From NCBI GenBank assembly GCA_037974965.1, contig JBBPFI010000023.1, positions 1 through 21,628 of the forward strand: DNA of 21,628 bases, read 5' to 3'. The notes under the pieces were generated by a model. That model ran no database searches, had not been told where the DNA came from, and saw nothing but the letters and a program-made list of their open reading frames with translations. A program made the translations under genes and the position numbers. The stretch's first letter is position 1, and each line of letters starts with the position of its first letter. This document shows, in pieces, positions 3,001 to 21,185 of this stretch. This DNA comes from Dacryopinax spathularia. Lineage: Eukaryota > Basidiomycota > Dacrymycetes > Dacrymycetales > Dacrymycetaceae.

Positions 3001-5336
3001 GTGGTATCCTAGCTTGATTTGTAAATGGCTAGGCGGATGGTCTGTAGTCTACGGCATGAAGAGACTTCAGGATATGACCTCCGACGGATTGACAAGAAGT
3101 CAATTAGAACCAGAGAGTAAGGAACCTAAAAGAACTACATCCACAATATTAGATACCATCGGATTACCTAAGGGGAGCAATCTCTATGGTAACAGAGGAA
3201 TCGTAGTACCCGTTTTGAACTGCGGTTTAATATACGGTAGCGGTAATGCGCTAAAAAGGGGAAGGGTTCCAGGAATATTACTTACTCAGAATAGAGGATA
3301 CTGTGATGGAGGTCACGAAAACGTACCTAATAAACTAGTAAGCCTGGCAAAATTTTGTTCGGAATACCCAGACAAATATGTAGATAGAAATATTTATAAA
3401 TTAATGCTCGACAGAGATATGTTTCACCTAGCTTATCACAGACTCAAATCAAAACCAGGAAATATGACGCCTGGTCTTAATCCAGACACCTTAGATGGAC
3501 TGAATTTGGACTGAATAGATTCAACTATAGCCAAACTAAAGAATGAATCGTTCCAATTCTCCCCAGCTAGAAGAATACAAATTCCCAAAGCTGACGGAAG
3601 AATGAGACCCCTAACTATAGCATCTCCTAGAGACAAAATTGTTCAAGAAATCATGCGAATGATACTCGAAGCAATCTATGAGCCAACATTCTTAGAGGAC
3701 AGTCACGGATTCAGACCCGGAAGGGGATGTCATTCTGCACTGAAACATGTGGACACTTACTTCCGAAGTACCACGTGAATGATTGAAGGAGATATCAAAG
3801 GTTGCTTTGATAACTTCAACCATGACAAACTGTTATCGATTTTGAGAACTAAAATCAAAGACGAATCATTCTTGAAACTCCTCGCGAAAGCGTTAAGAGT
3901 AGGATACGGAGAAATGGGGAAAATTATTGAACATAATATAATCGGGACTCCTCAAGGATCTATCTTAAGCCCTATTCTATGTAATATCTACATGCATGAG
4001 CTCGATAAATTCGTGAAAGAACTAAAAACTTCGTTTGATGTAGGAACGAAAATACCTAGAAACCCGATATATCACAAACTATCTACAGCAGCCAGAAGAG
4101 CGAGACTGAAAGACAATATGGATAGCTTCGAAACGATTAGCAAAATTGTTAGAACCCTTCCATATAACATATATGACAGCCCCACATACAAAAGACTGTT
4201 CTACTGTAGATACGCTGATGACTGAATTGTAGGGATCAAAGGTACTTTCGAAGAAAGCTCAGTTATCTTGGAGAAAATTAGAAAATTTCTGGACGAGTCA
4301 CTACATTTGACTCTTAGCTCTAGTAAAACCAAAATAACTAACCTAAACAGAGACAAAGCCTTATTTCTGGGAGCGAATATCTTAAGAGGACAACACGTAA
4401 AATTCAAAAGAATAAAACGTGTTGTAAGTCTAAGAGACAATACACGAGGGATAAATGAGATAAACCAAAGAACGGCGAGAAGCATCAGATTTGAAGCCCC
4501 TTTAGACAGAATAAGAACTAAACTGACTGAGGCAGGCTTCATTTCACAAGGTAGACCTAATCCTAAATTCATATGAATTGCACTTTCGAAAAACCAAATC
4601 GTGTCTTTATATAACTCTGTTCTACGAGGATATGTGAACTACTACCGATTCGCCGCTAACTATGGAAAAATGGTTAGCTTCGTTAGATGAACCTTATTCT
4701 TTTCGTGTGGACGAACGTTAGCTAACAAATACGGAACTTCGGTAGCGAAAATAGTTAAGAAATATGGATTGGACTTCGGTAAAGGAGATAAGAAATAAAT
4801 TGGATTAATAAAACCATCGTACTCCAATTTCCATGGTATTAACCGATTTGCAATAGGAAGGCTTAAAGAGCCTATGCCGCACATTGCTGCCCTATTTGCA
4901 TCTAGCAAGTCTGTGGCCAACTTAGACAACCTTATTTGCGCTATGTGTGGATCATCAAATAAAATTGAGATGCATCACGTACGAGCTCTTAAAGACCTAA
5001 GACCCGAAGCTAGACCGGTGGATAGAGTAATGAGTATAGCTAGACGGAAACAGATTCCCCTATGTCGGGTGTGTCATATGGATAGGCACTTCCCTTCTAG
5101 ACTGATCCAGAAAGAGAAATCTAGAAAAAGGGCGAAGTATCCTAACAAAAGCAGAATGGGCAGCTAATATTCTGGAGAGCCGGATGATGTGAAAATATCC
5201 CGTCCGGTTCGGGAAGGGGGCGTAGAATTCCAAGCGTAATACCCTTGGAACCTGCGTTCTATTTCATCCTATAGCTATTGAAGCGGTTTCGATAAATCAT
5301 TTTTTGATCTGATTGCATGACCTCTTCCTTTTGTAG
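1..5336 (+). CDS. cox2: Cytochrome c oxidase subunit 2, 3' part, three exons split by two group II introns
   Basis: The coding segments are 1-8, 2460-2776 and 5268-5336 (stop TAG 5334-5336); the 5' end lies outside the window. Joined, they read YW-S-YEYSDF, then the copper-A site [12 protein letters not shown] (2741-2776) with both Cys, Glu, His and Met ligands, then PIAIEAVS and a short tail. The tail length fits normal Cox2 C-termini. Cox2 receives electrons from cytochrome c at its binuclear copper centre, on the intermembrane side of the inner mitochondrial membrane. TGA encodes the Trp at 5-7 and another Trp near the C-terminus. Intron 1 interrupts a Ser codon in the aromatic electron-entry segment, and intron 2 follows the copper-ligand Met codon. 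Exon ends were set by GTGCG intron starts, AY intron ends and protein continuity. The exon 3 start (5268) is the only placement that restores PIAIEAVS. Confidence 0.93.
8..2335 (+). CDS. Group II intron-encoded reverse transcriptase / maturase / HNH endonuclease (intron 1)
   Basis: With TGA as Trp, the frame is open from the exon-intron junction codon (8-10) to TAA at 2333-2335, in phase with the Cox2 exon, so it is probably made as a Cox2 fusion and then processed. GTG at 56 and ATG at 116 are alternative starts. RT blocks run from about 590: [10 protein letters not shown], then [41 protein letters not shown] and [17 protein letters not shown]. The catalytic motif is YADD at 1415-1426. A maturase (X) region follows to about 2000. 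The C-terminus is an HNH/zinc-type endonuclease: CLICG, QMHHVKH, then CFSCHTKIH (about 2132-2280). All expected catalytic residues are visible, so the protein looks capable of splicing help and retrohoming. Confidence 0.92.
9..2459 (+). mobile_element. cox2-i1: Group II intron 1 of cox2, with intron-encoded protein
   Basis: The intron begins with the consensus GTGCG at 9-13 and ends CCCTAC at 2454-2459, just before GT-TAT-GAA of exon 2. Domain V is a clear 34-nt element at 2359-2392 starting GAGCCGTATG, with a GAAA loop and ending GTACGGTTC. Domain VI lies between it and the 3' end. A candidate EBS1 (TTCAGT, 270-275) is complementary to the last six exon bases ACTGAA (3-8); a second TTCAGT lies at 347-352. 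The first is preferred because its spacing to a segment conserved with intron 2 (near 368) resembles that of EBS1 in intron 2. The ORF covers domains I-IV, as is usual for mitochondrial group II introns whose protein is fused to the upstream exon. Self-splicing ability cannot be judged from sequence alone. Confidence 0.92.
2777..4798 (+). CDS. Group II intron-encoded reverse transcriptase / maturase (intron 2), ends before its HNH domain
   Basis: The frame continues without interruption from cox2 exon 2 into the intron (TGA as Trp) and stops at TAA 4796-4798. The protein is therefore expected as a Cox2 fusion that is later processed. RT motifs in order are [16 protein letters not shown] (about 3450-3500), [59 protein letters not shown], and YADD at 4211-4222. 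The maturase region includes [14 protein letters not shown] near 4635. The protein ends [13 protein letters not shown] and then stops. The family normally continues into an HNH endonuclease, which is present in the same frame downstream but separated by the stop. RT and splicing roles may be retained, while target-strand cleavage would be lost unless the stop is read through. Confidence 0.88.
4799..5167 (+). pseudogene. HNH endonuclease domain cut off from intron 2 protein by an in-frame stop
   Basis: This is the same frame as the preceding RT/maturase, open from just after TAA 4796-4798 to TAA 5165-5167. It encodes [17 protein letters not shown] and [12 protein letters not shown], the Cys-Cys, HH and Cys-Cys-H pattern found at the end of the intron 1 protein. 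An ATG at 4874 could start a free 97-residue HNH protein, but it falls just ahead of the domain by chance position and no independent gene signal is evident. The simplest reading is a single nonsense change in a once continuous protein. A sequence error at 4796-4798 is an alternative. Confidence 0.75.
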
Positions 5337-5344
5337 GTCCATGC

Positions 5345-5376
5345 GCATCCGTAGTTCTGAACCTTGCTACGGATGC
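5345..5376 (+). promoter_or_regulatory. Perfect hairpin just after the cox2 stop
   Basis: GCATCCGTAG (5345-5354) and CTACGGATGC (5367-5376) form a perfect 10-bp stem with a 12-nt loop. It begins 9 bases after the cox2 stop and ends 14 bases before the ATG of the large ORF. By position it could mark the cox2 mRNA 3' end or a processing site between cox2 and the ORF; that role is inferred. It is fairly GC-rich within an AT-rich setting. Confidence 0.6.
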
Positions 5377-5389
5377 CATTGCTATCGGA

Positions 5390-8116
5390 ATGAAAGCTGG
5401 AACCTTAACTTATAATATTTTTTACTTCATACTATATCTTTTTATTATATATATGACAGGTAATTGTTATTATTTTGTTAAGAGTACATTTAGTTTCATT
5501 AAAGAAATTTATTCTTATATTCTAAATTTTTTTAAAAATAGCAATGATAAAGAAAAGGGAATATTGTCACTAATAATTAAAAATAATATTTATTGAAATA
5601 TGTATTTCTTAAATATCAATAAATTTATTAGTGGACTTATCTATACTATTATAGGTTTAAATTTTATTTTTAGTTTTATTTCTAATATTGATATTATATT
5701 ATTTATTTCTAATTTTTCAATTTGTATGGATCTGGATACAGACACAGGAATATCATTCTCTACTTTCGATTTAGATGATGAAGCAAATTACGCAACTCTT
5801 CATCCCAACAATCCACATCAACTTGCAGATGCGAGACCAAATAAACCTGACTTAGAAGGAGTTAATCCTCAAGTGAATATAATTGTAATCGAATCAAAAG
5901 TAAATGAAACCTACTCTGATGATGATAATATGTCTGAACCTTCTTATCACGTTGAGATGCGTCAGTCTCATTTTTTGATTGGAGACGTTCAACCTGTAGC
6001 AAATGAAACTGGTTCAAAAGCTGGACAAATTATTAATAACGTTGAAACTTACCAAGATACTTTTGGTAATAAAGAAGTTGTTAGAAATACATTTGTTGGT
6101 TCTGGAAGTCCTAAGTATCACGAGTCTGAAGTAAAACAATCTATTGATGATTTAACTTCAGAGCAGAGGGCTATACTAACAGATGAAATTTATAATAATA
6201 TTAGGACAGATTTACCTGTTGTATACCGATATCAAGATACAACAGACTCAGATATCGAGGATAGTATAGAAGAACAAGGTGGTAGAAGTAATATAGTTAT
6301 TAACCGAAACGAAGACGAAGAAACGATTGGGTTTATTATCTTTAATTCAAAATTTAGAAGATTAAAAAATCTTTCATCTTGGTTATATGTGAATAGCATT
6401 TGAACCGCTTTGAATAAATCAATTTCGAATCTAAAATTCGTATTTTTTTTTAATACAAAATTGAATACTATTAGATTGATAATTCAAAGAATAACCCCTT
6501 CAAATTTGACGTTCGGTAGTTCTATAGTTTTTAGCATATGCTTAAGAATATACGACTCAATTAAAACCCTATATTTATATAATTCTATTGTCAACAGAAT
6601 AAAAAATCATTTTTATTGAATTTATAATTTTATTATAATTGTTGTTAAAAATTTGATTTATCCTTTTATTTCTAAATTTATAGGTTTATTTTATAATTGT
6701 ATAAAAATTATTGCTTTATTATTTTTATTACCATTTATTAAAGATAAAAAAAATAGAGATATTATTAAATGTCATATTGTAATATCTCAACTTTTTATAA
6801 TTTATAACTTATATACTATTAAAGTAGCTTATTTTTGTTGGGTGTGTTATTTATTATTACATCTCTTTTTAGATAATACTTTTTTATTTGTAAGTTTATT
6901 ATCTACTGAATCTCATTTTTACTTCACTGAATTATTAGTAAATTGCAAATTTAATTCTTATTTCGAAATAGCAATTAAATTTAATAATGATTTCAATTTA
7001 GAGATGGATCACTGAGTATGTTCTAGTAAAGGACAGACTTCTTCTGGTTCGGGCTCACCTATCTCATATCATAGTTCTTACAGAGGTGAGAATCCCGATA
7101 AACTGTTTAAGATTAAAGATAACTTTGAACGTCTTATAGATGTAAATCAGCGTACAGAAACAGGGATTTATATTAAAAATGTATGAAATCCATTGGACTG
7201 TAGTATACGAAAGGATATTATATTAGTCGAATATCCTTTGTTCCATTTTTTTAAGAATAATCCTGAGACGGTAAATGTTAAATTAACTTATTCTAGCGTT
7301 TTTCGAGATTTCCCATTTTTAGATGATGGTGGTGGAACTTTAGAAGATTTTCCAGATGATAAGGCTGAAGCCATAGAGTTTCTACGAGATGTACAGGGTA
7401 GTGGTGATGGTGAATATATGGTTCCAAGTACTAAATTTATTACTTGAGAAGAGTTATATGATATTAATCCCCGAGATGCCGAATTTGTACCCGAAGCATT
7501 CCACGGTAGACAAATATTATATAAGGATGTTCAAGAGAATGAGCCTTATTGTAGAGAGAATTATTCTGAATTTATGGAGGAATATGTGGGTGATCCTGTA
7601 AAAACCCAAAAAATAGTCGATTATTATAATTGGAGAGTTGCCAATAATCAAGTAGACATTCCTAGACAGGATCCTAAATGAGTACCATCTCTCGCTCTCG
7701 AGAACGTACATGTAAATTCTCAGGCTGTTAACGAACTTGGAGATTCTGAGTTTGGTGATGAAATAGTTCAATCAAGCAGTAGAGATGGATCTGAGGGTAA
7801 TGTTACGCCGGATATTTTAGATAAAGATATTAGCATGGCTTCATCTAGAAGTACTAGTCCTGTAAGGTTATACGATAGTACTAGTCCTGTAAGGATATAC
7901 GATAATAATGATCTCCCACGACCTAGAATTAGTTCTTCTAGCAGTCTGAGTCCTAGAATTAGTTCTTCTAGCAGTCTGAGTCCTAGAATTAGATCTTCTA
8001 GAAGTCTGAGTCCTAGAATTAGATCTTCTAGAAGTCTGAGTCCTAGAATTAGAGGCAGACGAGATTCTAATAGTAATGTAGTAGATAGATATAATGTTAG
8101 ATCAACTAGAGATTAA
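5390..8116 (+). CDS. Large unknown ORF (908 codons) with membrane segments and Ser/Arg/Pro repeat tail
   Basis: I do not recognise this gene. With TGA as Trp it is one frame from ATG 5390 to TAA 8114-8116, crossing seven in-frame TGA codons, so under the standard code it would look like many short pieces. Hydrophobic, probably membrane-spanning stretches lie at about residues 5-25, 79-103 and 425-510. Between them is a hydrophilic, Asp/Glu/Asn-rich segment (about 107-335). A long hydrophilic segment (about 543-820) ends in repeats: two STSPVR(L/I)YD units and four PRIxSSxSLS units. Base use in the hydrophilic parts is less AT-biased than in the nad genes. It follows cox2 on the same strand, and the frame is already open across cox2 exon 3, so a start upstream of 5390 by a non-ATG codon is possible. 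Such free-standing ORFs are often plasmid-derived or lineage-specific in fungal mitochondria; that origin is unproven here. Confidence 0.75.
7850..7903 (+). repeat. Two 27-bp tandem units in the unknown ORF
   Basis: Units at 7850-7876 and 7877-7903 differ by one base (TTA versus ATA). Each encodes STSPVR(L/I)YD. The 27-bp length keeps the reading frame. Confidence 0.9.
7922..8041 (+). repeat. Four 30-bp tandem units in the unknown ORF
   Basis: Units are at 7922-7951, 7952-7981, 7982-8011 and 8012-8041, followed by a partial fifth. Units 1 and 2 are identical (PRISSSSSLS), and units 3 and 4 are identical (PRIRSSRSLS). The array therefore seems to have grown by doubling of a variant pair. The result is a basic Ser/Arg/Pro tail. 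Confidence 0.92.
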
Positions 8117-8215
8117 TTTAGTTATTCTAATATTAGGATACAACGAATGCTTCAATGAATTATGCAAACTAAATTAATTCAATGATGATAGCAAATTCTC
8201 TTTTTGTTAAAAAAA

Positions 8216-8330
8216 AGAAATAAATAATTTATTTCTTTAAATGATAGAGTCTAGACAATTTTCTAAAAAAAAATAATAAATAAATTATTTCTTTAAAGGT
8301 AGAGTCTAGACAATTCTCTAAATAAAAATA
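8216..8330 (+). repeat. Near-tandem direct repeat of about 55 bp downstream of the unknown ORF
   Basis: Two similar copies (about 8217-8270 and 8275-8328) share ATTTATTTCTTTAAA-like sequence followed by TAGAGTCTAGACAATT and TCTAAA. Each begins with the AT-rich inverted repeat AGAAATAAAT/ATTTATTTCT or its relic. No coding sense is seen. It could be a 3' processing or insertion relic. Confidence 0.65.
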
Positions 8331-8376
8331 AAAAAAAGTATACAATATATTTATAAAATTAAATATATTCCTCCCA

Positions 8377-8448
8377 AGGGAATTAGCTGAGTTGGTATAG
8401 CAATAATCTTACACATTATAGACAAGGTTTCGAATACCTTATTCCCTA
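8377..8448 (+). tRNA. trnV: tRNA-Val (UAC)
   Basis: The cloverleaf has acceptor AGGGAAT (8377-8383) pairing with ATTCCCT (8441-8447). The D arm is GCTG...TAGC, and the anticodon stem ATAAT/ATTAT encloses loop CTTACAC with anticodon TAC. The T arm is AAGGT/ACCTT with loop TTCGAAT. Discriminator base is A 8448. It reads GUN codons. Confidence 0.9.
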
Positions 8449-8929
8449 AAAATTTTTTGCCATGTGCGACTTTTTTTATTTTTATTTAGGAATTTAGACC
8501 ATTTACTAAATATAAATTAAATAAATATATTTAATTTATATTTTATTCGTACTTTAAAGTAATTATTTTATTATTATAATAATAAATCTCGCCAATAATT
8601 TTTAATATACCTTTTTTTTTTTAATAAGCATAAGCTTTTAAAAATAATTAAAAATAAAAATCTTTATAGCCAGTATTCAGTATTTTACTTTAAGTCATTA
8701 TCCTTAATTAAAATAAAAAAAGAATAAAAAAATTATATTCTTTTTTTATGTTTAATAAATTCTTTAATCTATTTAAAAATAAATTTCTTTCCAGGTTTAA
8801 AAAAGTAAGCAAAAAAAATAAAAACAATAGGCTTATTAAAAGGAGTTAGAGAATACATTATTTAGTAGAGTAAAAAAAAAAACAAATATTTTATTTTTTA
8901 AAAATTAAAACTAGTTTTAAAAAATATGG

Positions 8930-8976
8930 CCCACGGCTGCCCAGGGCTGCCCACGGCTGCCCTGGGCAGCTGTGGG
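8930..8976. repeat. GC-rich palindromic element
   Basis: CCCACGGCTGCCCAGGG (8930-8946) and CCCTGGGCAGCTGTGGG (8960-8976) form a 17-bp stem with one G-U position around a 13-base loop that repeats the CCCACGGCTG motif. It stands out sharply from the flanking A/T sequence and shares core words with clusters near 10071, 11552 and 11762. Known fungal parallels are GC clusters and double-hairpin elements. Confidence 0.88.
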
Positions 8977-10070: not shown

Positions 10071-10151
10071 GCCCACGGCAGCCCAGGCTATAAAAAAAAA
10101 TATATTTTTTTGCCGTGGGCAGCCGTGGTCAGCCGTAGGCAGCCGTGGGCC
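10071..10151. repeat. GC-rich inverted repeat plus four 10-bp tandem units
   Basis: GCCCACGGCA (10071-10080) pairs perfectly with TGCCGTGGGC (10111-10120) across an A/T loop. Tandem units follow: GCCGTGGGCA 10112-10121, GCCGTGGTCA 10122-10131, GCCGTAGGCA 10132-10141 and GCCGTGGGCC 10142-10151. This is the same family as the element at 8930-8976. Confidence 0.88.
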
Positions 10152-10337: not shown

Positions 10338-11334
10338 ATGGAATCTATATTATTTGGTTTAATTGATGTTCTTGTTTTAATAGTACCAGTTTTATTAGGT
10401 GTTGCATTTATGACTATTATAGAAAGAAGAATATTAGCAGCTATGCAAAGAAGAGTAGGACCAAATATAGTAGGAATTTATGGTATTTTACAACCATTTG
10501 CAGATGCTTTGAAACTAGTATTAAAAGAAACCATAGTTCCAGCCCAATCTACAAAAAGTTTGTTTTATTTAGCTCCAGTTTGAACATTAATTTGTAGTTT
10601 ATTAGGGTGATGTGTTTTTCCTTTTGGGTCAGGTTTGACTATTTTAGATTTTTCTTTGGGTATATTATTAACATTAGCAATATCATCTTTATCTATATGG
10701 AGTTTTATTAGCTGGTTGAAGTGCAAATTCTAAATATGCATTTTTAGGTTCTATTAGATCTACAGCAGCTATGATATCTTATGAATTGGTTTTAAGTTCT
10801 GCTGTTTTATTAATTATATTTTTATCGGGATCATTTAACTATATAGCTATAATTGAGAGTCAACAAGCTATTTGATATATTTTACCTTTATTTCCTATTT
10901 TTATATTTTTCTTCATAGCTATTTTAGCTGAAACTTCTAGAGTACCTTTTGATTTACAAGAAGCAGAATCTGAGTTAGTTTCTGGTTTTATGACTGAACA
11001 TTCTTCTATTATATTTGTATTTTTTTTTCTTGGTGAATATTGTTCTATAGTATTAATGTCGACATTAACAGCTATTTTATTTTTTGGAGGTTATAATTTA
11101 CCTGAACTATTTTATAATTATAGCATAATAAATATACAATCTTTTATATTAGCTTTAAAATCTTGTTTATTTTGTTTTTTATTTGTATGATTTAGAGCTA
11201 CATTACCAAGAGTTAGATGAGATCAAATTATCAATTTTGCATGAACAGGATTATTACCTATAGCTATTTCTTTTTTAATTTTAATACCTTGTTTATTAGT
11301 AGCCTTTGATTTTTGTAATCCAGGTCCTTTTTAA
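10338..11334 (+). CDS. nad1: NADH dehydrogenase subunit 1, with an apparent frameshift
   Basis: A proton-pumping membrane subunit of complex I that helps form the quinone chamber. It begins at ATG 10338 with [10 protein letters not shown] and runs through [72 protein letters not shown] and LPRVRWDQIINFAW to GPF and TAA 11332-11334. Conserved Trp residues use TGA. The 5' part is in the frame of 10338, while everything after about 10698 is one base out (+1). At ATA-TGG-AGT (10695-10703) the expected S-I-Y-G-V-L-L-A-G-W reads correctly only if T 10698 is skipped, and the Tyr is then missing. This fits loss of two bases from a TATATAT run, by mutation or sequencing error; programmed frameshifting is less likely. 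Apart from this the protein is full length. Confidence 0.9.
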
Positions 11335-11551: not shown

Positions 11552-11578
11552 TGCCGTGGGCTGCCGTGGGATGCCATG
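11552..11578. repeat. GC-rich cluster GCCGTGGGCT
   Basis: It contains TGCCGTGGGC twice-like words (GCCGTGGGCT, GCCGTGGGAT) and then GCCATGC, with a further AAGCCGTGG at 11614-11622 beyond an A/T palindrome. The core is the one seen at 10111-10151. Confidence 0.8.
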
Positions 11579-11761: not shown

Positions 11762-11807
11762 CCGTGGGGCTCCCGTGGGGCTCCCGTGGGGCTCCCGTGT
11801 GGTGTGG
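11762..11807. repeat. GC-rich tandem repeat, 11-bp unit
   Basis: Three perfect copies of CCGTGGGGCTC lie at 11762-11772, 11773-11783 and 11784-11794, followed by a degenerate CCGTGTGGTGTGG. It lies directly next to a T run. It is related in core sequence to the other GC clusters but has a different period. Confidence 0.9.
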
Positions 11808-13518: not shown

Positions 13519-13718
13519 TAAACAAAAATATTTATTTTAATAATAAGTTGTCAAATAAATTAACATATACTTATATAATTAATATATTATATGATAATTT
13601 AATTTATTGTTAATTTATAAATAATAATAAAAACCCCTTATATTTAAAAAAAGATTTAAAAGAAGTATTAAACCAAAAAAATAAAAAATTAAAAAATTTT
13701 TAATACTAATTATTATAA

Positions 13719-13791
13719 CTGGTGGAAGACTAATTGGCTTGTCGCATAGTTTGGGACTATGTATTTGTTCGTTCGAATCGGACCCACCAGA
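13719..13791 (+). tRNA. trnP: tRNA-Pro (UGG), copy 1
   Basis: Acceptor CTGGTGG pairs with CCACCAG (13784-13790). The D arm is GAC...GTC. Anticodon stem CATAG/CTATG encloses loop TTTGGGA with anticodon TGG. T arm GTTCG/CGGAC has loop TTCGAAT. The gene sequence appears identical to the copy at 18967-19039. Confidence 0.93.
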
Positions 13792-13916
13792 TCCTCATAT
13801 TATATCAAAGTGTTGATATAAATAAAAGTAAACTAAAAAAAAAGGTATACAATTAATTTAATATAATTCATATTATCAAATGAGTATACAAATTAACTAA
13901 CTAAATTAATATTTCT

Positions 13917-13988
13917 GGTATTATAGCATAGTGGTCATGCAGAGTACTGTTACTACTCATTACAGAGGTTCGAATCCTCTTAATACCT
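13917..13988 (+). tRNA. trnN: tRNA-Asn (GUU), copy 1
   Basis: Acceptor GGTATTA pairs with TAATACC (13981-13987). The D arm is GCA...TGC. Anticodon stem GAGTA/TACTC encloses loop CTGTTAC with anticodon GTT. T arm AGAGG/CCTCT has loop TTCGAAT. It appears identical to the copy at 19176-19247. Confidence 0.93.
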
Positions 13989-14497
13989 ATTTTACTTAGG
14001 ATTTTAGTAATCTATGCGTCCTTGCTTGAAGCTAAAAAAAATATAATTCTTTTTTTGATTTTTTTTTTATAGACAAAGGTAAGTAAAATGAAATTAAGAA
14101 ATAATAATTTTATTTCTTTCTTAAAACTTTTCTAATTATCCTATTCCTTTTTTTTTTTATTCAATTTAAATAAAAAAATAAAACTTATACTTATAACCAA
14201 TAAAAGTTAATAAATTTAACTCATATTTAGTATTCTTAATTAAATTTCTAAAATTTTCTATTTTATTATTCTATTTTATCCATCTACAGTAGCCTAAGGC
14301 AGCCTGATTTTAATATTTAAAAACAAGAATTAAATAGATAAAATTTTAACATTAATCTTTAAGTATAAAAAATTTTAATATATAGTAAATGTAAATATCT
14401 TACTAAAAACCTTGATATTTTTTAAATAACTATCTTATTATTAAATATAACGAATAGTTAAAAATATTAAAGAAAAAAAAATAAAAAAAAAATAATA
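13989..14497. other. trnN-nad6 spacer, no gene found
   Basis: About 500 bases of A/T sequence. Patches such as TAAATTTAACTCATATTTAGT and AAAAAATTTTAATATATAGTAAAT recur upstream of the second nad6 copy, so the spacer belongs to the duplicated block. A weak GC motif (GTAGCCTAAGGCAGCC, about 14289-14304) resembles decayed members of the GC-cluster family. Confidence 0.7.
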
Positions 14498-15145
14498 ATG
14501 GGACTTAGTCATTTTCTATTAGATATTTTAGCTTTTGGAGCAATTATTTCAGGAATATTAGTTATAACTTCTAAAAATCCTGTAATTTCAGTATTATTTT
14601 TAATTTCAGTTTTGATTCATTCTGCTTGTTATTTATTAGTATTAGGAGTAGGTTTTGTAGGGTTATCTTATCTTATTATTTACGTAGGTGCTATTACAGT
14701 TTTATTTCTATTTGTTATTATGATGATCAATATAAAATTAGTAGACTTATTAGAAGTGGGATCAGAATATACTAAAAGTTTACCATTAGGTTTAATTCTT
14801 ACAAGTTTATTTTTTTATGAAATGTTAACTATTTCTCCTATAAATTTAAATTATGATTCAATACTATCTTTACCATTATGATTTATAAATAAAATAAATG
14901 CTATGATGTTAAATTACAATGATAATAATATTGAATATTTAGCTTTAATGCAAAACAAAAATAATTTACCATCTATTGAAAACATATCAGATACTACAAT
15001 TTATAATTTTTTACAAATAGAAATGTTAGGACAAACATTATATACTTATGGTTTCATTCTATTAATAATAATGGGTATTATATTATTTTTAGCTATGTTT
15101 GGACCTATTGTATTAAGTTTAAGAATTAATCATAAAGATGATTAA
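14498..15145 (+). CDS. nad6: NADH dehydrogenase subunit 6
   Basis: A hydrophobic membrane subunit of complex I. The 215-residue frame runs from ATG 14498 to TAA 15143-15145 with one in-frame TGA Trp (14879-14881). It shows the Nad6 core: an ILAFGAIISGILVITSKNP segment, HSACYLLVLGVGFVGLSYLI and YVGAITVLFLFVIMMINIK. An Asn-rich loop separates this from the last helix (GQTLYTYGFILLIIMGIILFLAMFGPIVL). This is the intact member of two copies; the other (19635-20326) is broken. Confidence 0.95.
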
Positions 15146-15272
15146 TTTTTAAATATTTAAATTTAAAAATATCTCCCCTTTATATTTAATAATATTTAAT
15201 TAAAAAACTCTTTGTTCTATGTACAAGTTGTCTAGACTTAATTTTGAACAAAAAAGTTAAAATTTAATTTCC

Positions 15273-15296
15273 CGCGTGGCGACTCGCGTGGCGACT
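15273..15296. repeat. GC-rich tandem pair, 12-bp unit
   Basis: CGCGTGGCGACT occurs twice in a row (15273-15284 and 15285-15296) within A/T sequence between nad6 and trnC. It is distinct in sequence from the GCCGTGGGC family but similar in style. Confidence 0.85.
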
Positions 15297-15333
15297 AAAA
15301 TCTTTCATTGGGGAAAAACAAACTTAATATTTC

Positions 15334-15405
15334 GAGTTAAGTATAGATGGTTCTATGACTGGATTGCAAATCTGGTTTTTAAGGGTTCAATTCCCTCTTA
15401 ACTCT
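15334..15405 (+). tRNA. trnC: tRNA-Cys (GCA)
   Basis: Acceptor GAGTTAA pairs with TTAACTC (15398-15404). D arm is ATAG...CTAT. Anticodon stem CTGGA/TCTGG (with wobble pairs) encloses loop TTGCAAA with anticodon GCA. The T arm is AAGGG/CCCTC with one mismatch. A decayed relative lies at 20462-20530. Confidence 0.85.
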
Positions 15406-15487
15406 TTTATCTCTTTTACGTTCTTTGTTTGCTTAATACGAAATAATAAAGAATTTTAAAGTAACTGTCAAATAATGATATTTAATA

Positions 15488-15559
15488 TTTCCCATGACTT
15501 AATGGTGAAAGTAACATTCTTCTAAAGTGTTTATTTGGGTTCGATTCCCAATGGGAAAA
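15488..15559 (+). tRNA. trnR: tRNA-Arg (UCU)
   Basis: Acceptor TTTCCCA pairs with TGGGAAA (15552-15558). D arm is ACTT...AAGT. Anticodon stem ACATT/AGTGT encloses loop CTTCTAA with anticodon TCT. T arm TTGGG/CCCAA has loop TTCGATT. It reads AGA/AGG. A decayed relative lies at 20611-20681. Confidence 0.88.
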
Positions 15560-15662
15560 ACCTTTTTATTTATGTAATTTTATTTATAATTTTTTGTTCC
15601 TAGGGTAGCCTTAAAGTAAGCCATAGTAGCATATTTATTAACTTTATTTATTTTTTATTTTT

Positions 15663-15733
15663 ACTAGTATAATATATAGGTAGTATCATGATCTTCAAAA
15701 TCATTAGTTAGCGTTTGAATCATTTTACTCTTG
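15663..15733 (+). pseudogene. Decayed tRNA-Trp (UCA), copy 1
   Basis: It aligns along its length with the intact trnW at 20746-20816 and keeps the anticodon arm ATGAT-CTTCAAA-ATCAT. The acceptor (ACTAGTA versus TACTCTT) has two mismatches, and the T arm (TAGCG versus CATTT) is largely unpaired. It is probably non-functional. Confidence 0.75.
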
Positions 15734-17271
15734 TAAAATATTTTATTTTAGTAAAATAGTAATATTCTAATAAAATGATTTTTATACTTTTTTTAAATAA
15801 GCTTGCGACTTTTTATAATATAAAGTATAAAGCCTTAAAAAAAAGTAAATATTTTTTTTTTTATTTTTTTTTATTAGCCTCTTTTCTTTATTTTGGATTC
15901 TAAAGAATTAACTGTTATAATTAATTTATCTAATTACTTACTCACTTATAATTTCGCACTTTATTTCTAAAAATTTCAAATTCTTTTTTATTTTTATTTT
16001 ACATATTTCTTATTTTAACACTTTGAATTTTTGTAAATTTGTCTTTTTCATAGTGCAAAAAATATAAATTTCTTTTAAGTTTTCCAATATTAAAAGTAAT
16101 ATTTACAAGAATATCATATATGTCGTTTTCAATATCAATAATTAATAAACTGATAGTCCTTCTTAAAATTTTGTTGGGAATAGTATTATACTTTTTTTTT
16201 TTATTAGAATGATTTGAGGTATAAAATTTTTAAACATTTTCATGAAAAATTTTTTTATTTTTAATTCTTTAATACTAGATATCAAGTGTAAATAATTTGT
16301 GTTGTAATCTTATTGAGTATATAAAGATAATCTAGAATAATTTAAATTACCGCCTATGGCAGCCATAAATTCTAATTTTTATAACCTTCTTATATTATAA
16401 GAATATTTCTAATAGATTAAATAGTCAATAAAACCCAATAATCTGAATAAGATAGCGTTTATAAATAGAATGAATATTTATAGCTAGCTATGTTATAAAA
16501 ATTTAATTTAGCTAAGACATTACTCCACATTTTTTTTTCAAATAGAAAAATACTTAAAAATATTTATACTTTCTTAAAATTTAGATTTAGACTTTATTCT
16601 CCAAAATTATTTATCACTATTTCACTTTGTAAAATACTAAAATCTAAGAAACTAAATTATAAAAATAAGTATATGTTATTTCTATTTTTTTTTTCTCGGT
16701 AGAAGGCTCATTTTTACTGTTATAAAATTTAAATATAAAGTTTATAATTTTTCCTGTAGAAAATCCTCATATAATACTCTATATTTATATAAAAATTTCT
16801 TAATTATTTACTTATTAGAATACAAATTTAATCTATCAACTGAATATTTTCATAATCTTTTTTAGGTTTATTAAAACTTCATGTAAAACTAAGCTAATTT
16901 AATGAAATCATTCATTTGCTACATGGATACCTTAAATCTTATAAATCTTTTTTATTATTAGTAATAGTAATCATTTTTTAATTATTATTTTTTTTTTTTA
17001 CTTTTAACAATAAATATTTTTGAAATTTTATACTGGGTAAAATTTTAACAAAAATCTATTATTCTTATATACTCTGAATATTACTATTTTTTTTTTAGTA
17101 ATACATTTTATATTACTAGTTGATTAACCTTTTTTATCTATTTTTCTTTGTTTATACCATTTTACTTTTTTTTTTATTTTAATTTTATAAAAATAAATAC
17201 TATTTACACTTTGCACCATTAAAATAAAAAAAAAAATATATAAATAAGGGGTTGTTATACTTATATTTATT
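15734..17271. other. Long AT-rich spacer, no gene found
   Basis: About 1.5 kb of A/T sequence with stops in all frames. The first about 130 bases are the tail of the duplicated block. A short GC-bearing motif (CCGCCTATGGCAGCC, 16351-16365) may be a decayed GC cluster. No tRNA-like fold was found by eye. Confidence 0.65.
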
Positions 17272-18669
17272 TTATATAAGTCTTATATTTGTTTTTGAAC
17301 TACTTCTATTATAAGATGAAGATTTAGAAATAGTGTTAAGAGTTAAAAATAAACAAAAATTTTTATAGCTATTATGAACAAGTATATAATTATCAATATT
17401 ATTAAATAATTCATTACTAATATAAATTTGCATAAATATAATTATTATTAATAGTATTATAGAATATATTGCTATTAATAAATAAAATGTATTGCTAAAT
17501 TTAAAAAAATTATCTAATCACTTAATACTCCAACTACTAAGAAAAACTGGTAGATACTTGGCCAATTTTTCTTTAATAGGATTTTTATCAAAACTAGATA
17601 ATAATCTAAGCAGAAAAATTAAAATTAATAATAATATTACACCTATGGCTATAACATCTAAAATAATAGAATAAATTAATAATTCTTGCATAGGACTTAA
17701 GGATTCGAATGGACTGGCAAAAAAATTGTCAGTAGGACTATTTGGACGATTACTAGTATCCAAATTATAGGATTGTGTTTTTAAATTAGCAGTGTCTAAA
17801 ATATTTTGACCGATTGCTTTACCGACCATGCCCCCGACTGCAACTGTACCATCTGTTAAACCTGCACTAGCTGCAGTTACAGCAATACGAGGCGCCATTG
17901 GCATACCGGCTGTTCCTTTGAAAACAGTTGCCCCTACTGTACCTCCTGCAGCACTAGCTCCTAAAGTAATACCAGCTTGTTCAATGGCTTTTCCAGCCAA
18001 ATAAGTTAATTCACTTAAAACCGTATCAGTTACATTTTTGTCCACTCTAGCTTCATAATAAGGTTTTTGTTCCACAGTTTCAGTTTTATCTGCCCCATGC
18101 ACCTCTTTTACATCTAGAATTGATTTATTTGTGTTTTCAACGGCACTATTTGAACCTGCACTAGATCCTATGTCATCTGTACTACAATATACCAATTTTA
18201 TGACTCCGCTTTCATAAAGCAAACCGGTACCCAGGACCAATAATAAGAATCATATAATAAAATTAATAATAAATTTTTGTAATAACCTGATAACTATATT
18301 CTCTGAATAATGAAACTTATCTAAAATAAAATAATGTATACAAAAAGAAAATGTAAATCCTATAACAAAAATCAACCAATTAAAATTTGAATATACTATT
18401 AAATAATATAGAAAAAAAAACATAAATAACATTAAAGAAAGAAAAAAGGCAATATCTCCTGCATTATTAAAAATTTTAATATTACTATTATTTTTATTAT
18501 TAAATTTTTGTACCGTGTGCATAATAGCAAGGATTTTGTGTATAAATAAAGTGCTGACTAAATTTGGGAATATTTTTTTAATTATTTTTATTTTTATATA
18601 ATCTGTGTTAGGTACTGCAATAAATGCAAAGTACAATGTTACTATATTTATCGTTGGCAACTCGAGCCT
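17272..18669 (-). CDS. Unknown membrane-protein ORF on the minus strand
   Basis: I do not recognise this gene. On the minus strand one frame (TGA as Trp at 18250-18252 and 17518-17520) is open from about 18669 to TAA 17272-17274, about 462 residues from a TTG at 18660. No ATG occurs at the very start, so TTG, ATA or ATT may initiate. The AT-rich N-terminal third has hydrophobic helices. A central region (about 18060-17800) is rich in Gly, Ala, Thr and Val, with short repeats such as GASAAGGTVGATVF and AVGGMVGKAIG. A Pro/Ser segment (SPFESLSPMQELL) then precedes a strongly hydrophobic span (IAIGVILLLILIFLLRLL). A Ser/Asn/Lys/Arg-rich tail closes the protein. The middle is clearly less AT-rich than the surroundings. 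It is the only coding strand switch in the window and lies between the two duplicated blocks, which suggests an inserted element, perhaps plasmid-derived. Confidence 0.68.
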
Positions 18670-18966
18670 TTATATATAGAAGTAAATCAAATTTATTGAC
18701 AACTTTGTTTAATCTAACTGATTGTGGGAATGCGGATTAAATTATATTTAAATTCTAAATTCTACTTTTAAATTTTAATCGAATTTAATATTTTTTTTTT
18801 TAAGTTTAATTTCTAATTAAAAAAAAAATATCAACAAATATTATTAAGATTAAATAAAGAAATAAATATAAACTTTTTTAAAAAATAGATAAAGGTTTAA
18901 AAGAAGTATGTATGTTAAAAAAAATAACTTACGGCAAAAAATTAAATTTAATATTAATTATTATAA

Positions 18967-19039
18967 CTGGTGGAAGACTAATTGGCTTGTCGCATAGTTT
19001 GGGACTATGTATTTGTTCGTTCGAATCGGACCCACCAGA
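18967..19039 (+). tRNA. trnP: tRNA-Pro (UGG), copy 2
   Basis: Same sequence and fold as 13719-13791, with anticodon TGG in loop TTTGGGA. The flanks differ (GATCCCCTATTC instead of GATCCTCATATT downstream). The short open frame that covers it is not a gene. Confidence 0.92.
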
Positions 19040-19175
19040 TCCCCTATTCTATCAAGGTGTTGATATAAATAAAAGTAAATTTAAAAAAAGGAATATTATA
19101 TAAATTTTTTGTCGGTGGTATTAAATTATTTTTAGGATATAAATTTAAACATTTGTTTGCTAAATTAATATTTCT

Positions 19176-19247
19176 GGTATTATAGCATAGTGGTCATGCA
19201 GAGTACTGTTACTACTCATTACAGAGGTTCGAATCCTCTTAATACCT
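19176..19247 (+). tRNA. trnN: tRNA-Asn (GUU), copy 2
   Basis: Same sequence and fold as 13917-13988, with anticodon GTT in loop CTGTTAC. Upstream TTAATATTTCT and downstream TATTTTACTTA are also shared. Confidence 0.92.
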
Positions 19248-19634
19248 ATTTTACTTACGATTTTATTTATGTATATATAAATAAATTTTAATAAGAATAT
19301 TTAAATTTTATTTTTTTTTTTTAATTTATTATTCTATCCTTTTTTTTAATTAAATTTAAACAAACAAATTTAAATTTACACTTTTAACTGATGGAAAGTT
19401 AATAAATTTAACTCCTATTTAGTTTTCTTAATAAATTATTTCAAATTTACTCGCTACGCACTAACTATGCCTTATCCTTTTTTTTTACTTAAAAAGTAAA
19501 AAAAAAAATTTTTTAAGATTAATACTTAAATATAAAAAATTTTAATATATAGTAAATATTTTACTATAATAATATATATTATATAAGATATTTAATAAAA
19601 AAACCAAACAAATTAAATAACCAAAAATATATTA
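19248..19634. other. trnN to broken nad6 spacer, no gene found
   Basis: A/T-rich. Pieces such as GTTAATAAATTTAACTC and AAATATAAAAAATTTTAATATATAGTAAAT match the spacer before the intact nad6. A short mixed-base patch (CTCGCTACGCACTAACTATGCC, about 19450) has no counterpart that I can see. Confidence 0.65.
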
Positions 19635-20326
19635 ATGATGGAATTTAGTTATTTTCTATTAGATATTTTAGCTTTTGAAGTAATTATTTCAGGAATATTA
19701 GTTATAACTTCTAAAAATCCTATAATTTTAGTATTATTTTTAACTTCAGTTTTTATTCATTCTGCTTGTTATTTATTAGTATTAGGAGTAGGTTTTGTAG
19801 GATTATCTTATCTTATTATTTACGTAGGTGCTATTACAGTTTTATTTCTATTTGTTATTATGATGATCAATATAAAATTAGTAAACTTATTAGAAAGGTT
19901 AAAAATATACTAAAAATTTTCCATCAGATTAAATCTTTACAAATTTATTTTTATACGCAATGTTAATTAATTCTTATATAAATTTAAATTATGATTTAAT
20001 ACTATCTTTACCATTATGATTTATAAATAAAAATAAAATTAAAATTTCTGCCCATGGCTAAAAAAAAAAATAAAAAAAAAAACAACCTACGGCAACAAAT
20101 TAAATAAATAATAATAATACATATTATATTTTTTGAATGAAAATATATGTAAATTTGCTATATTTTTTAAATTAATCATATAGTAATATATTTACTTTTT
20201 TATAAATAAAAAAGTTACGTCAAATAATATATACTTCTGATTTTATTAATAATTAAGGGGTTTATATTATTCTTATTAATATTTAGACCTAGAGTATTAA
20301 GTTTAAGGCTTAATTACAAATAATAA
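19635..20326 (+). pseudogene. nad6: Broken second copy of nad6
   Basis: The first 84 codons or so match the intact nad6 closely (HSACYLLVLGVGFVGLSYLI and YVGAITVLFLFVIMMINIK retained). The frame then fails: after INIKLVNLLE the reading becomes RLKIY and a stop at 19911-19913. Downstream sequence still aligns in pieces. One piece near 19990-20030 matches the region before the Asn-rich loop of nad6. Another at 20270-20326 is the relic of the last helix, GPIVLSLR. Between these lies unrelated A/T sequence with a small GC motif (TGCCCATGGC, 20049-20058). Early substitutions are mostly conservative, which suggests that the frame break is not ancient. Confidence 0.9.
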
Positions 20327-20461
20327 AAAAAGTATTTAGCTATTAAACTAATAAATTTAAATATTTAAATTATCCTTTTTTTTTTTTATTTAGTAATTAA
20401 ACAAAAATAATGTAATTAAATTTAGTACGTATCTTATCTAGATAGGACAAGTTTAAATTTA

Positions 20462-20530
20462 GAGTGAAGTATAAATGGCTAAACCCTGGATTGTAAATAT
20501 GGTTTTTAAATATTCAATTCCTTCTAGAAA
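20462..20530 (+). pseudogene. Decayed tRNA-Cys copy
   Basis: It aligns with trnC at 15334-15405 (GAGTGAAGTATA..., CTGGATTGTAAATATGG). The anticodon position reads GTA instead of GCA, and the D, T and acceptor stems no longer pair well. Confidence 0.78.
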
Positions 20531-20610
20531 AAAAAACTTTTTTATTTTTATATGTTTACAATCATACCCCAGCATAAAATTTATATTCATTGTTAAAAAC
20601 CATTTTTATA

Positions 20611-20681
20611 TTTACCCAAAACCGAAAGGTAAAAGTAACATTCTTCTAAAGTGTATATTTGGTTTATATTCCCAATGACAA
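20611..20681 (+). pseudogene. Decayed tRNA-Arg copy
   Basis: It aligns with trnR at 15488-15559 and keeps the anticodon arm ACATT-CTTCTAA-AGTGT intact. The acceptor strands (TTTACCC and TGACAA) no longer pair and the T arm is weakened. Confidence 0.78.
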
Positions 20682-20745
20682 CCCCCTTTTTATTTATAGA
20701 GTTTTATTTTTATTTTTAATTCTTATTAACTCCCTTTATTTTTTT

Positions 20746-20816
20746 AAGAGTATAGTATAATGGTAGTATCATGATCTTCAAAATCATTAGTAAGCGTTCG
20801 AATCGCTTTACTCTTG
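20746..20816 (+). tRNA. trnW: tRNA-Trp (UCA)
   Basis: Acceptor AAGAGTA pairs with TACTCTT (20809-20815). D arm is GTAT...GTAT-like. Anticodon stem ATGAT/ATCAT encloses loop CTTCAAA with anticodon TCA, which reads UGA and UGG as Trp. T arm AAGCG/CGCTT has loop TTCGAAT. This is the intact member of the pair with 15663-15733, and it explains the TGA-Trp code seen in every coding region here. Confidence 0.92.
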
Positions 20817-20894
20817 TAAAATATTTTGTTTTAGTAAATTAATTATAGTTTTTTTTATTTACTATTTTTTAATAGTAATATAAAAAAAGCTTGC

Positions 20895-20916
20895 AACTTT
20901 TTATATTTAAAAAGTT
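20895..20916. repeat. Conserved AT hairpin after trnW
   Basis: AACTTTTT (20895-20902) and AAAAAGTT (20909-20916) form an 8-bp stem with loop ATATTT. It sits inside AAGCTTGCAAC...AAAGCCTT, a segment that recurs after the other trnW copy (about 15800-15838) with a shorter stem. It may be an RNA processing signal. Confidence 0.55.
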
Positions 20917-20954
20917 AAAAGCCTTTAAAAAAAAAAGTTAAATATTTTTTTTTT

Positions 20955-21025
20955 AGGAATATAGTATAATGGTAGTATATTGATCTCCAAAATCAATGGT
21001 AGGCGTTCGAATCGCTTTATTCTTG
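20955..21025 (+). tRNA. trnW: tRNA-Trp-like with anticodon CCA
   Basis: Acceptor AGGAATA pairs with TATTCTT (21018-21024, one G-U). D arm is GTAT...GTAT as in trnW(uca). Anticodon stem TTGAT/ATCAA encloses loop CTCCAAA with anticodon CCA. T arm AGGCG/CGCTT (one G-U) has loop TTCGAAT. It is clearly a paralogue of trnW(uca) 140 bases upstream. Stem changes are paired, so it looks like a working gene. It would read only UGG. Confidence 0.85.
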
Positions 21026-21185
21026 GCTAAATAAAAATAAATTTATAATGATAAAGTATTTAATTAACTTGTATTTCTCTTTTTTTTTTTATCGTATGTT
21101 TATCTTGCTTAAATTACGACAGTTCATTTTTTTCAAATCTTTTAAACATACTGTGACGAAAATAAAGACTTAAAATATATGATAA

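Follow-up and report, generated by a model that had tools for sequence, protein, structure and literature searches.

We identified a probable accessory gene of mitochondrial DNA (mtDNA), here called orf908, in a 21,628-nucleotide window that makes up contig C23 of a 29.2-Mb genome assembled in 24 contigs. The open reading frame (ORF; 5390–8116, plus strand, from ATG to stop under genetic code 4) reads TGA as tryptophan and would encode a multi-span membrane protein of 908 amino acids (aa) with sizeable hydrophilic portions. On balance, we favour the interpretation that it is a genuine gene, most likely one of the plasmid-associated orphan ORFs termed ncORF or uORF in Agaricomycetes, and that judgement extends to its putative origin, expression and role. 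orf908 would have arrived with a linear mitochondrial plasmid and would now be co-transcribed behind cox2, with a hairpin between the two marking the site at which the transcript is cleaved into separate messages. The orf908 protein may be inserted into the inner membrane during translation, its acidic and basic regions facing one or both sides, and could help to maintain or spread the plasmid or the mtDNA (by membrane anchoring, or by influencing mitochondrial mixing) rather than respiration. orf908 thus interpreted is a large, intact addition to a common and poorly understood class, the orphan membrane-protein ORFs of mushroom mtDNA.

The mitochondrial location follows from a second contig, C19 (146,554 bp), which matches the entire window with no mismatches and two small gaps, both outside the ORF. 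C19 carries rRNA parts and tRNAs (Rfam, ARAGORN) and nad4 (Pfam), and its remaining nad, cox and atp genes were recognised by eye from ORF lists. Its ends overlap by approximately 5.1 kb, and it contains a 10.3-kb inverted repeat. Given these features and the full-length, mismatch-free match, the window is a duplicate piece of the same mtDNA and not a second allele. A genome search located orf908 at only two places, the window and C19, and the two assembled copies, which represent the same molecule, are identical.

From 5240 to 8116 the plus strand holds 958 open codons under code 4, including nine TGA. From the first ATG, at 5390, there are 908 codons with seven TGA and three TGG, in agreement with the first-pass annotation, which had described a 908-codon mitochondrial ORF concealed under the standard code by seven TGA codons. 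First-order Markov simulations of this stretch (n = 300, six frames) gave longest ORFs of 96 aa at the median and never above 167 aa; the open frame is beyond chance, and real. GC content by codon position is 0.36/0.33/0.18. Seven accessory genes of this mtDNA served to train a codon model, under which the whole frame scored +0.126 bits/codon, compared with -0.233 and -0.307 for the other forward frames and -0.235, +0.072 and -0.204 for the reverse frames; the seven training genes, each scored by a model that omitted it, reached 0.118–0.233 in their own frames. Of 13 segments into which the body was divided, 11 scored higher in the orf908 frame than in either other forward frame, and in 10 the score of the orf908 frame was positive. 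Codon usage is close to that of orf334 and orf465, two other orphan ORFs of C19, and scores under this model and under a second one, built from five core genes (nad1, nad2, nad4, nad6 and atp6), indicate that the coding pattern of orf908 resembles that of the accessory genes more than that of those five. Rfam matches within the ORF (mir-254, ncr952, sR2) scored far under their gathering scores and were dismissed. Two possible tRNA genes for Trp codons lie 136 bp apart elsewhere in the window, at 20745–20817 (anticodon TCA, called selenocysteine, SeC, by ARAGORN) and 20954–21027 (anticodon CCA).

Judged by hydropathy only, the predicted product has seven non-overlapping 19-residue windows with a value of at least 1.2 (residues 6–24, 79–97, 373–391, 413–431, 432–450, 457–475 and 476–494), and none in the C-terminal 414 residues. 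Acidic stretches are evident from the charge per 60-residue block, and the 93-residue tail comprises 29 Ser, 19 Arg and 8 Pro residues with nine RS/SR dipeptides; the membrane stretches, acidic regions and Ser/Arg/Pro tail reported in the earlier annotation are therefore all present. The tail is built on in-frame tandem repeats on the plus strand, one of 27 bp (2.0 copies, 7850–7904) and one of 30 bp (4.4 copies, 7922–8053, coding the Ser/Arg/Pro tail), and so may reflect recent slippage; it is basic and repeat-expanded, and presumably disordered. Describing the combination as unusual for a mitochondrially encoded protein, as had been done, went too far, as orphan ORFs with membrane regions are reported to be typical of Agaricomycete mtDNA (PMC4201751, PMC10234125, PMC10512249), and seven others are present in this mtDNA.

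Searches of Pfam, NCBIfam and PHROGs, including the profile searches that had been called for, assigned orf908 to no family, consistent with its earlier description as a protein of unknown family. The sole sequence match in the PDB had an E value of 0.061 and was limited to the low-complexity tail region. No relatives were found in phage, plasmid, IMG/VR or GTDB collections, and a phage match (E 0.7, 25% identity) was dismissed. Such a related-locus search with one protein reaches close relatives only, and fungal mtDNA is outside the intended content of the phage and plasmid sets. A control search with nad4 recovered nine bacterial loci in GTDB and none in IMG/VR, with no fungal mtDNA in either, so orphan status and missing homologues are weak evidence; queries with dpo and orf465 likewise returned nothing from IMG/VR. 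Among open-licence PMC papers we found no report of a cox2-adjacent ORF of this build. A search with VAR1 (PF05316), intended to show whether a ribosomal-protein gene is missing, gave no match, a result that says little.

We assessed how orf908 compares with orphan ORFs described from other mitochondrial genomes. The host looks like a mushroom-type fungus, an Agaricomycete, based on DUF6533 (PF20151), which we take to be typical of that class and which occurs at 54 places in the genome and in 0 of 14 control genomes; the count alone cannot separate fungi, because the named control genomes are bacteria. Like the Heterobasidion ncORF1–6 and uORFs, orf908 is intergenic, at least 420 bp long, begins with ATG, is read under code 4 and, like most of them, has membrane regions (from hydropathy only). 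It also shares with them a codon usage resembling that of exchangeable genes (with cox2 exon 2 an exception among the core genes) and an occurrence in mtDNA that carries plasmid genes (rpo and dpo in C19; the Agaricomycete setting itself depends on the DUF6533 marker) (PMC4201751, PMC10234125). The ncORFs have little similarity to characterised proteins, defined in the source as E >0.1 in BLASTP against nr; orf908 may share this, with no match in Pfam, NCBIfam or PHROGs and one in the PDB, at E 0.061, that covers the low-complexity tail region only. Himmelstrand et al. described H. irregulare ncORFs as having membrane regions and no mutual similarity, and suggested a plasmid origin (PMC4201751). 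Membrane regions are reported for nearly all of the 20 intergenic ORFs from five Heterobasidion species (PMC10234125), and in a fungus-wide survey 35.51% of uORFs were without a known domain (PMC8672057). orf908 differs in its repeat-built Ser/Arg/Pro tail and, compared by description, greatly exceeds the size of nc-ORF5, the one ncORF used for the length comparison (predicted at 311 aa, or 181 aa as judged from its transcript; PMC10512249). Orphan ORFs of Physarum mtDNA and its mF plasmid are similarly of membrane type, without a known family, and located beside plasmid-type polymerase genes. However, Physarum is a myxomycete, the largest ORF of its mtDNA group is an RNA polymerase of 724 aa, and the fusion phenotype is described as tied to the mF plasmid and not to any tested gene (PMC10048350). 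Overall, orf908 likely belongs to the ncORF/uORF kind.

A plasmid derivation is plausible by association. C19 carries a plasmid-type rpo (PF00940, 1,412-aa open frame) and dpo (PF03175, 951-aa open frame), both away from orf908, and approximately 300 bp separate the end of dpo from the beginning of the large inverted repeat (C19 29961–40259 and 80569–90905, 99.4% identity), which contains tRNA and small-subunit rRNA parts. Seven companion orphan ORFs (orf465, orf712, orf395, orf334, orf500, orf410 and orf243), chosen by eye among C19 ORFs of at least 150 aa, all have predicted membrane spans. In six of them a run of over 90 residues is also free of such spans, the longest run in orf465 being 84; the same hydropathy run on core proteins gave longest stretches of 28 residues for nad4 and 76 for nad2. 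Companion matches to families under the cut-off (e.g. DUF1287, E 0.15; Phi-29_GP16_7, E 0.17; DUF748, E 0.0063) were dismissed. In Smith–Waterman comparisons of all 28 pairs among the eight orphan proteins (60 shuffles each), only orf712 and orf334 stood out, with a C-terminal membrane domain in common. The companion within the window, orf465 (17275–18669, minus strand), resembles orf908 in kind and has no sequence similarity to it. Around orf465, a block running from trnP, trnN and the 5' part of nad6 to trnR is directly repeated (13650–15861 and 18891–20954; five pieces, 80%–91% identical), resembling a target duplication produced by an insertion, and the second nad6 copy is truncated (98-aa frame). 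In Agrocybe aegerita, a nad4 duplication reportedly occurs either side of a plasmid integration site.

Several observations weigh against our interpretation. orf908 had no similarity to the seven other orphan ORFs (Z -0.5 to 1.4), matched rpo only at E 5.6, and matched other C19 ORFs at E 0.68 at best; plasmid origin is therefore indicated by association only. No terminal inverted repeats surround orf908, with no inverted match longer than 10 bp between 5300–5500 and 8000–8500. An integrated linear plasmid (invertron) unit at this site was accordingly rejected, rpo and dpo also lying elsewhere in C19. Codon scores separate the strands poorly, the reverse frame of dpo (0.249) outscoring its true frame (0.233), and the accessory score of orf908 falls below zero in 3 of the 13 body segments. 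The core-gene model scores orf908 at -0.029, with one reverse frame higher (0.007), and cox2 exon 2 is also off the core pattern (third-position GC 0.26, A 0.35). AlphaFold2 run on the single sequence was uninformative (mean pLDDT 35.8), and we propose no fold from it. In the literature, a Ganoderma lucidum ncORF is described as not expressed, doubts are cited on the T. cingulata ncORFs, and an alternative, alpha-proteobacterial origin is cited for M. perniciosa (all PMC4201751).

The strongest competing explanation, which we regard as unlikely though deserving of serious consideration, is that orf908 is a neutral or decaying plasmid relic, open by happenstance and unexpressed, comparable to LV-uORF in the Fusarium oxysporum complex. 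That ORF is also very long, belongs to no known family and has a codon use unlike core genes; it differs in its ascomycete host, its length of more than 2,200 codons and its position between rnl and nad2 (compared by description). Despite this length, the verdict on it was that function had either been lost in F. oxysporum or had never existed in Fusarium (PMC5604515), and hence a very long mitochondrial ORF can be considered non-functional in some species; the same source nevertheless recounts an earlier study that found purifying selection on it. Reported dN/dS was near one for Heterobasidion uORF6 and uORF9, and 0.9 and 1.15 for two of the three shared uORFs (PMC10234125), and no transcription is reported for the membrane-type orphan ORFs in Physarum mtDNA (PMC10048350). 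The tandem repeats of the tail also fit a relic. Against this, 908 codons are maintained in orf908 without a frame break and with a codon bias like that of other accessory genes; the ORF is also identical in both assembled copies, although these derive from the same molecule.

An improbable alternative is domestication, in which orf908 would be a host gene now serving the fungus, as has been proposed for Heterobasidion uORF8/nc-ORF5 with its mitonuclear growth effects. nc-ORF5 is reported as transcribed in H. irregulare and as the candidate locus behind a mitonuclear influence on growth rate (PMC10512249), so that one member of the orphan membrane-protein class may affect growth, and the dN/dS of uORF8 was near that of core genes (PMC10234125). 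The location of orf908 directly behind cox2 would suit such a role; however, nothing in its sequence points to respiration.

The composition of the tail raises a further, highly speculative scenario. SR proteins are defined by an RNA-recognition motif plus an RS domain; orf908 resembles the nuclear SR proteins in its Ser/Arg-rich tail but differs in having membrane spans, mitochondrial coding and no RNA-binding domain (no Pfam match). As no RNA-recognition motif was found by Pfam, we ruled out orf908 as an SR protein. It is nonetheless conceivable, if very improbable, that a membrane-anchored product made from a distal cistron of the cox2 message exposes an SR-like basic tail in the matrix, where it would bind RNA or nucleoids, be regulated by phosphorylation and be coupled to cox2 expression. 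If true, this would be an organelle counterpart of SR-type regulation.

The boundary with cox2 determines where orf908 begins. The second group II intron of cox2 has its 3' end (domains V–VI) at 5175–5267 (plus strand; RF00029, 61.1 bits). Exon 3 follows in another frame at 5268–5336 (plus strand; placed by the end of the Rfam group II match at 5267 and by translation), with the Cox2 stop TAG at 5334–5336 and a C-terminal sequence that is presumably the usual Cox2 end. A 53-nt spacer leads from this stop to the ATG at 5390 and contains a hairpin with a perfect 10-bp stem and a 12-nt loop (5345–5376, plus strand). The fold of 5330–5400 had a z of -2.93 (2 of 200 shuffles were at least as stable); even when as many as 3 mismatches are allowed, the full hairpin sequence is found at a single place in the window, and its stem arms have no other occurrence in C19. 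The short distance and the intervening hairpin make this locus a clear test case for the expression of such ORFs.

The first-pass annotation had pointed out that the frame is open from 5240 across exon 3, which is correct, and that the overlapping reading looks protein-like, which did not hold in any meaningful sense. This upstream extension (5240–5389, plus strand) is probably non-coding: GC content by position over its 50 codons is 0.48/0.50/0.32 versus 0.36/0.33/0.18 in the body, its codon score is -0.53 bits/codon versus +0.126 for the whole frame, and all three forward frames score negative there, the orf908 frame less so than the other two. A 150-nt stretch of local composition was open in a given frame in a fraction of 0.3602 of 5,000 simulations, and the protein-like reading past cox2 derives largely from the hairpin arms. 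Because chance alone would leave the upstream stretch open in 36% of cases and its coding score is poor, overlap or fusion with cox2 is not needed, and orf908 most likely starts after cox2, at ATG 5390. The suspected overlap is thereby explained without a special mechanism. The one hint of frameshifting is a T_TTT_TTG heptamer in the Cox2 frame (5300–5306), where a -1 shift would enter the ORF. It occurs 151 times in C19 (60 and 91 on the two strands), and in frame once in five other core genes counted. A hairpin promoting frameshifting usually lies 5–9 nt from the heptamer, whereas the hairpin here starts 38 nt past it. The rarer start codons ATT, ATC and CTG are present in frame before 5390, while ATG, GTG and TTG are absent from the in-frame codons upstream. 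A Cox2–ORF fusion by -1 frameshifting, or a start before ATG 5390, is thus extremely unlikely: the open frame, the -1 relation with its heptamer, the downstream hairpin and the rarer starts are outweighed by composition, codon score, chance openness, hairpin spacing, the lack of an upstream ATG, GTG or TTG, and the normal-looking Cox2 end.

Mobile ORFs can displace the C-terminus of a gene, as in Allomyces atp6 and Rhizophagus cox2. We rejected an arrangement of this type since the exon 3 region is single in C19 (other matches at most 15 nt), leaving no second, displaced cox2 3' end, and no homing endonuclease or other Pfam domain was found. The cox2 intron ORFs look like reverse transcriptases, judged visually and from blastp matches with other intron ORFs. 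In 14 of 15 pieces of C19 scanned (L003–L016) there were 15 RF00029 matches, two of them in cox2; this is numerous for a mushroom.

At approximately 10699 the window has 2 bases fewer than C19, and nad1 is split into frames at 10338–10733 and 10678–11334, compared with one 332-aa frame in C19; this is probably an assembly error in C23. Between orf908 and trnV is a 55-bp tandem repeat (2.3 copies, 8208–8337). GC-rich short tandem units (GCCCACGGCT, GCCGTGGGCA and CCGTGGGGCTC) recur in AT-rich spacers at 8929–8967, 10112–10150, 11552–11575 and 11762–11799, and resemble GC clusters.
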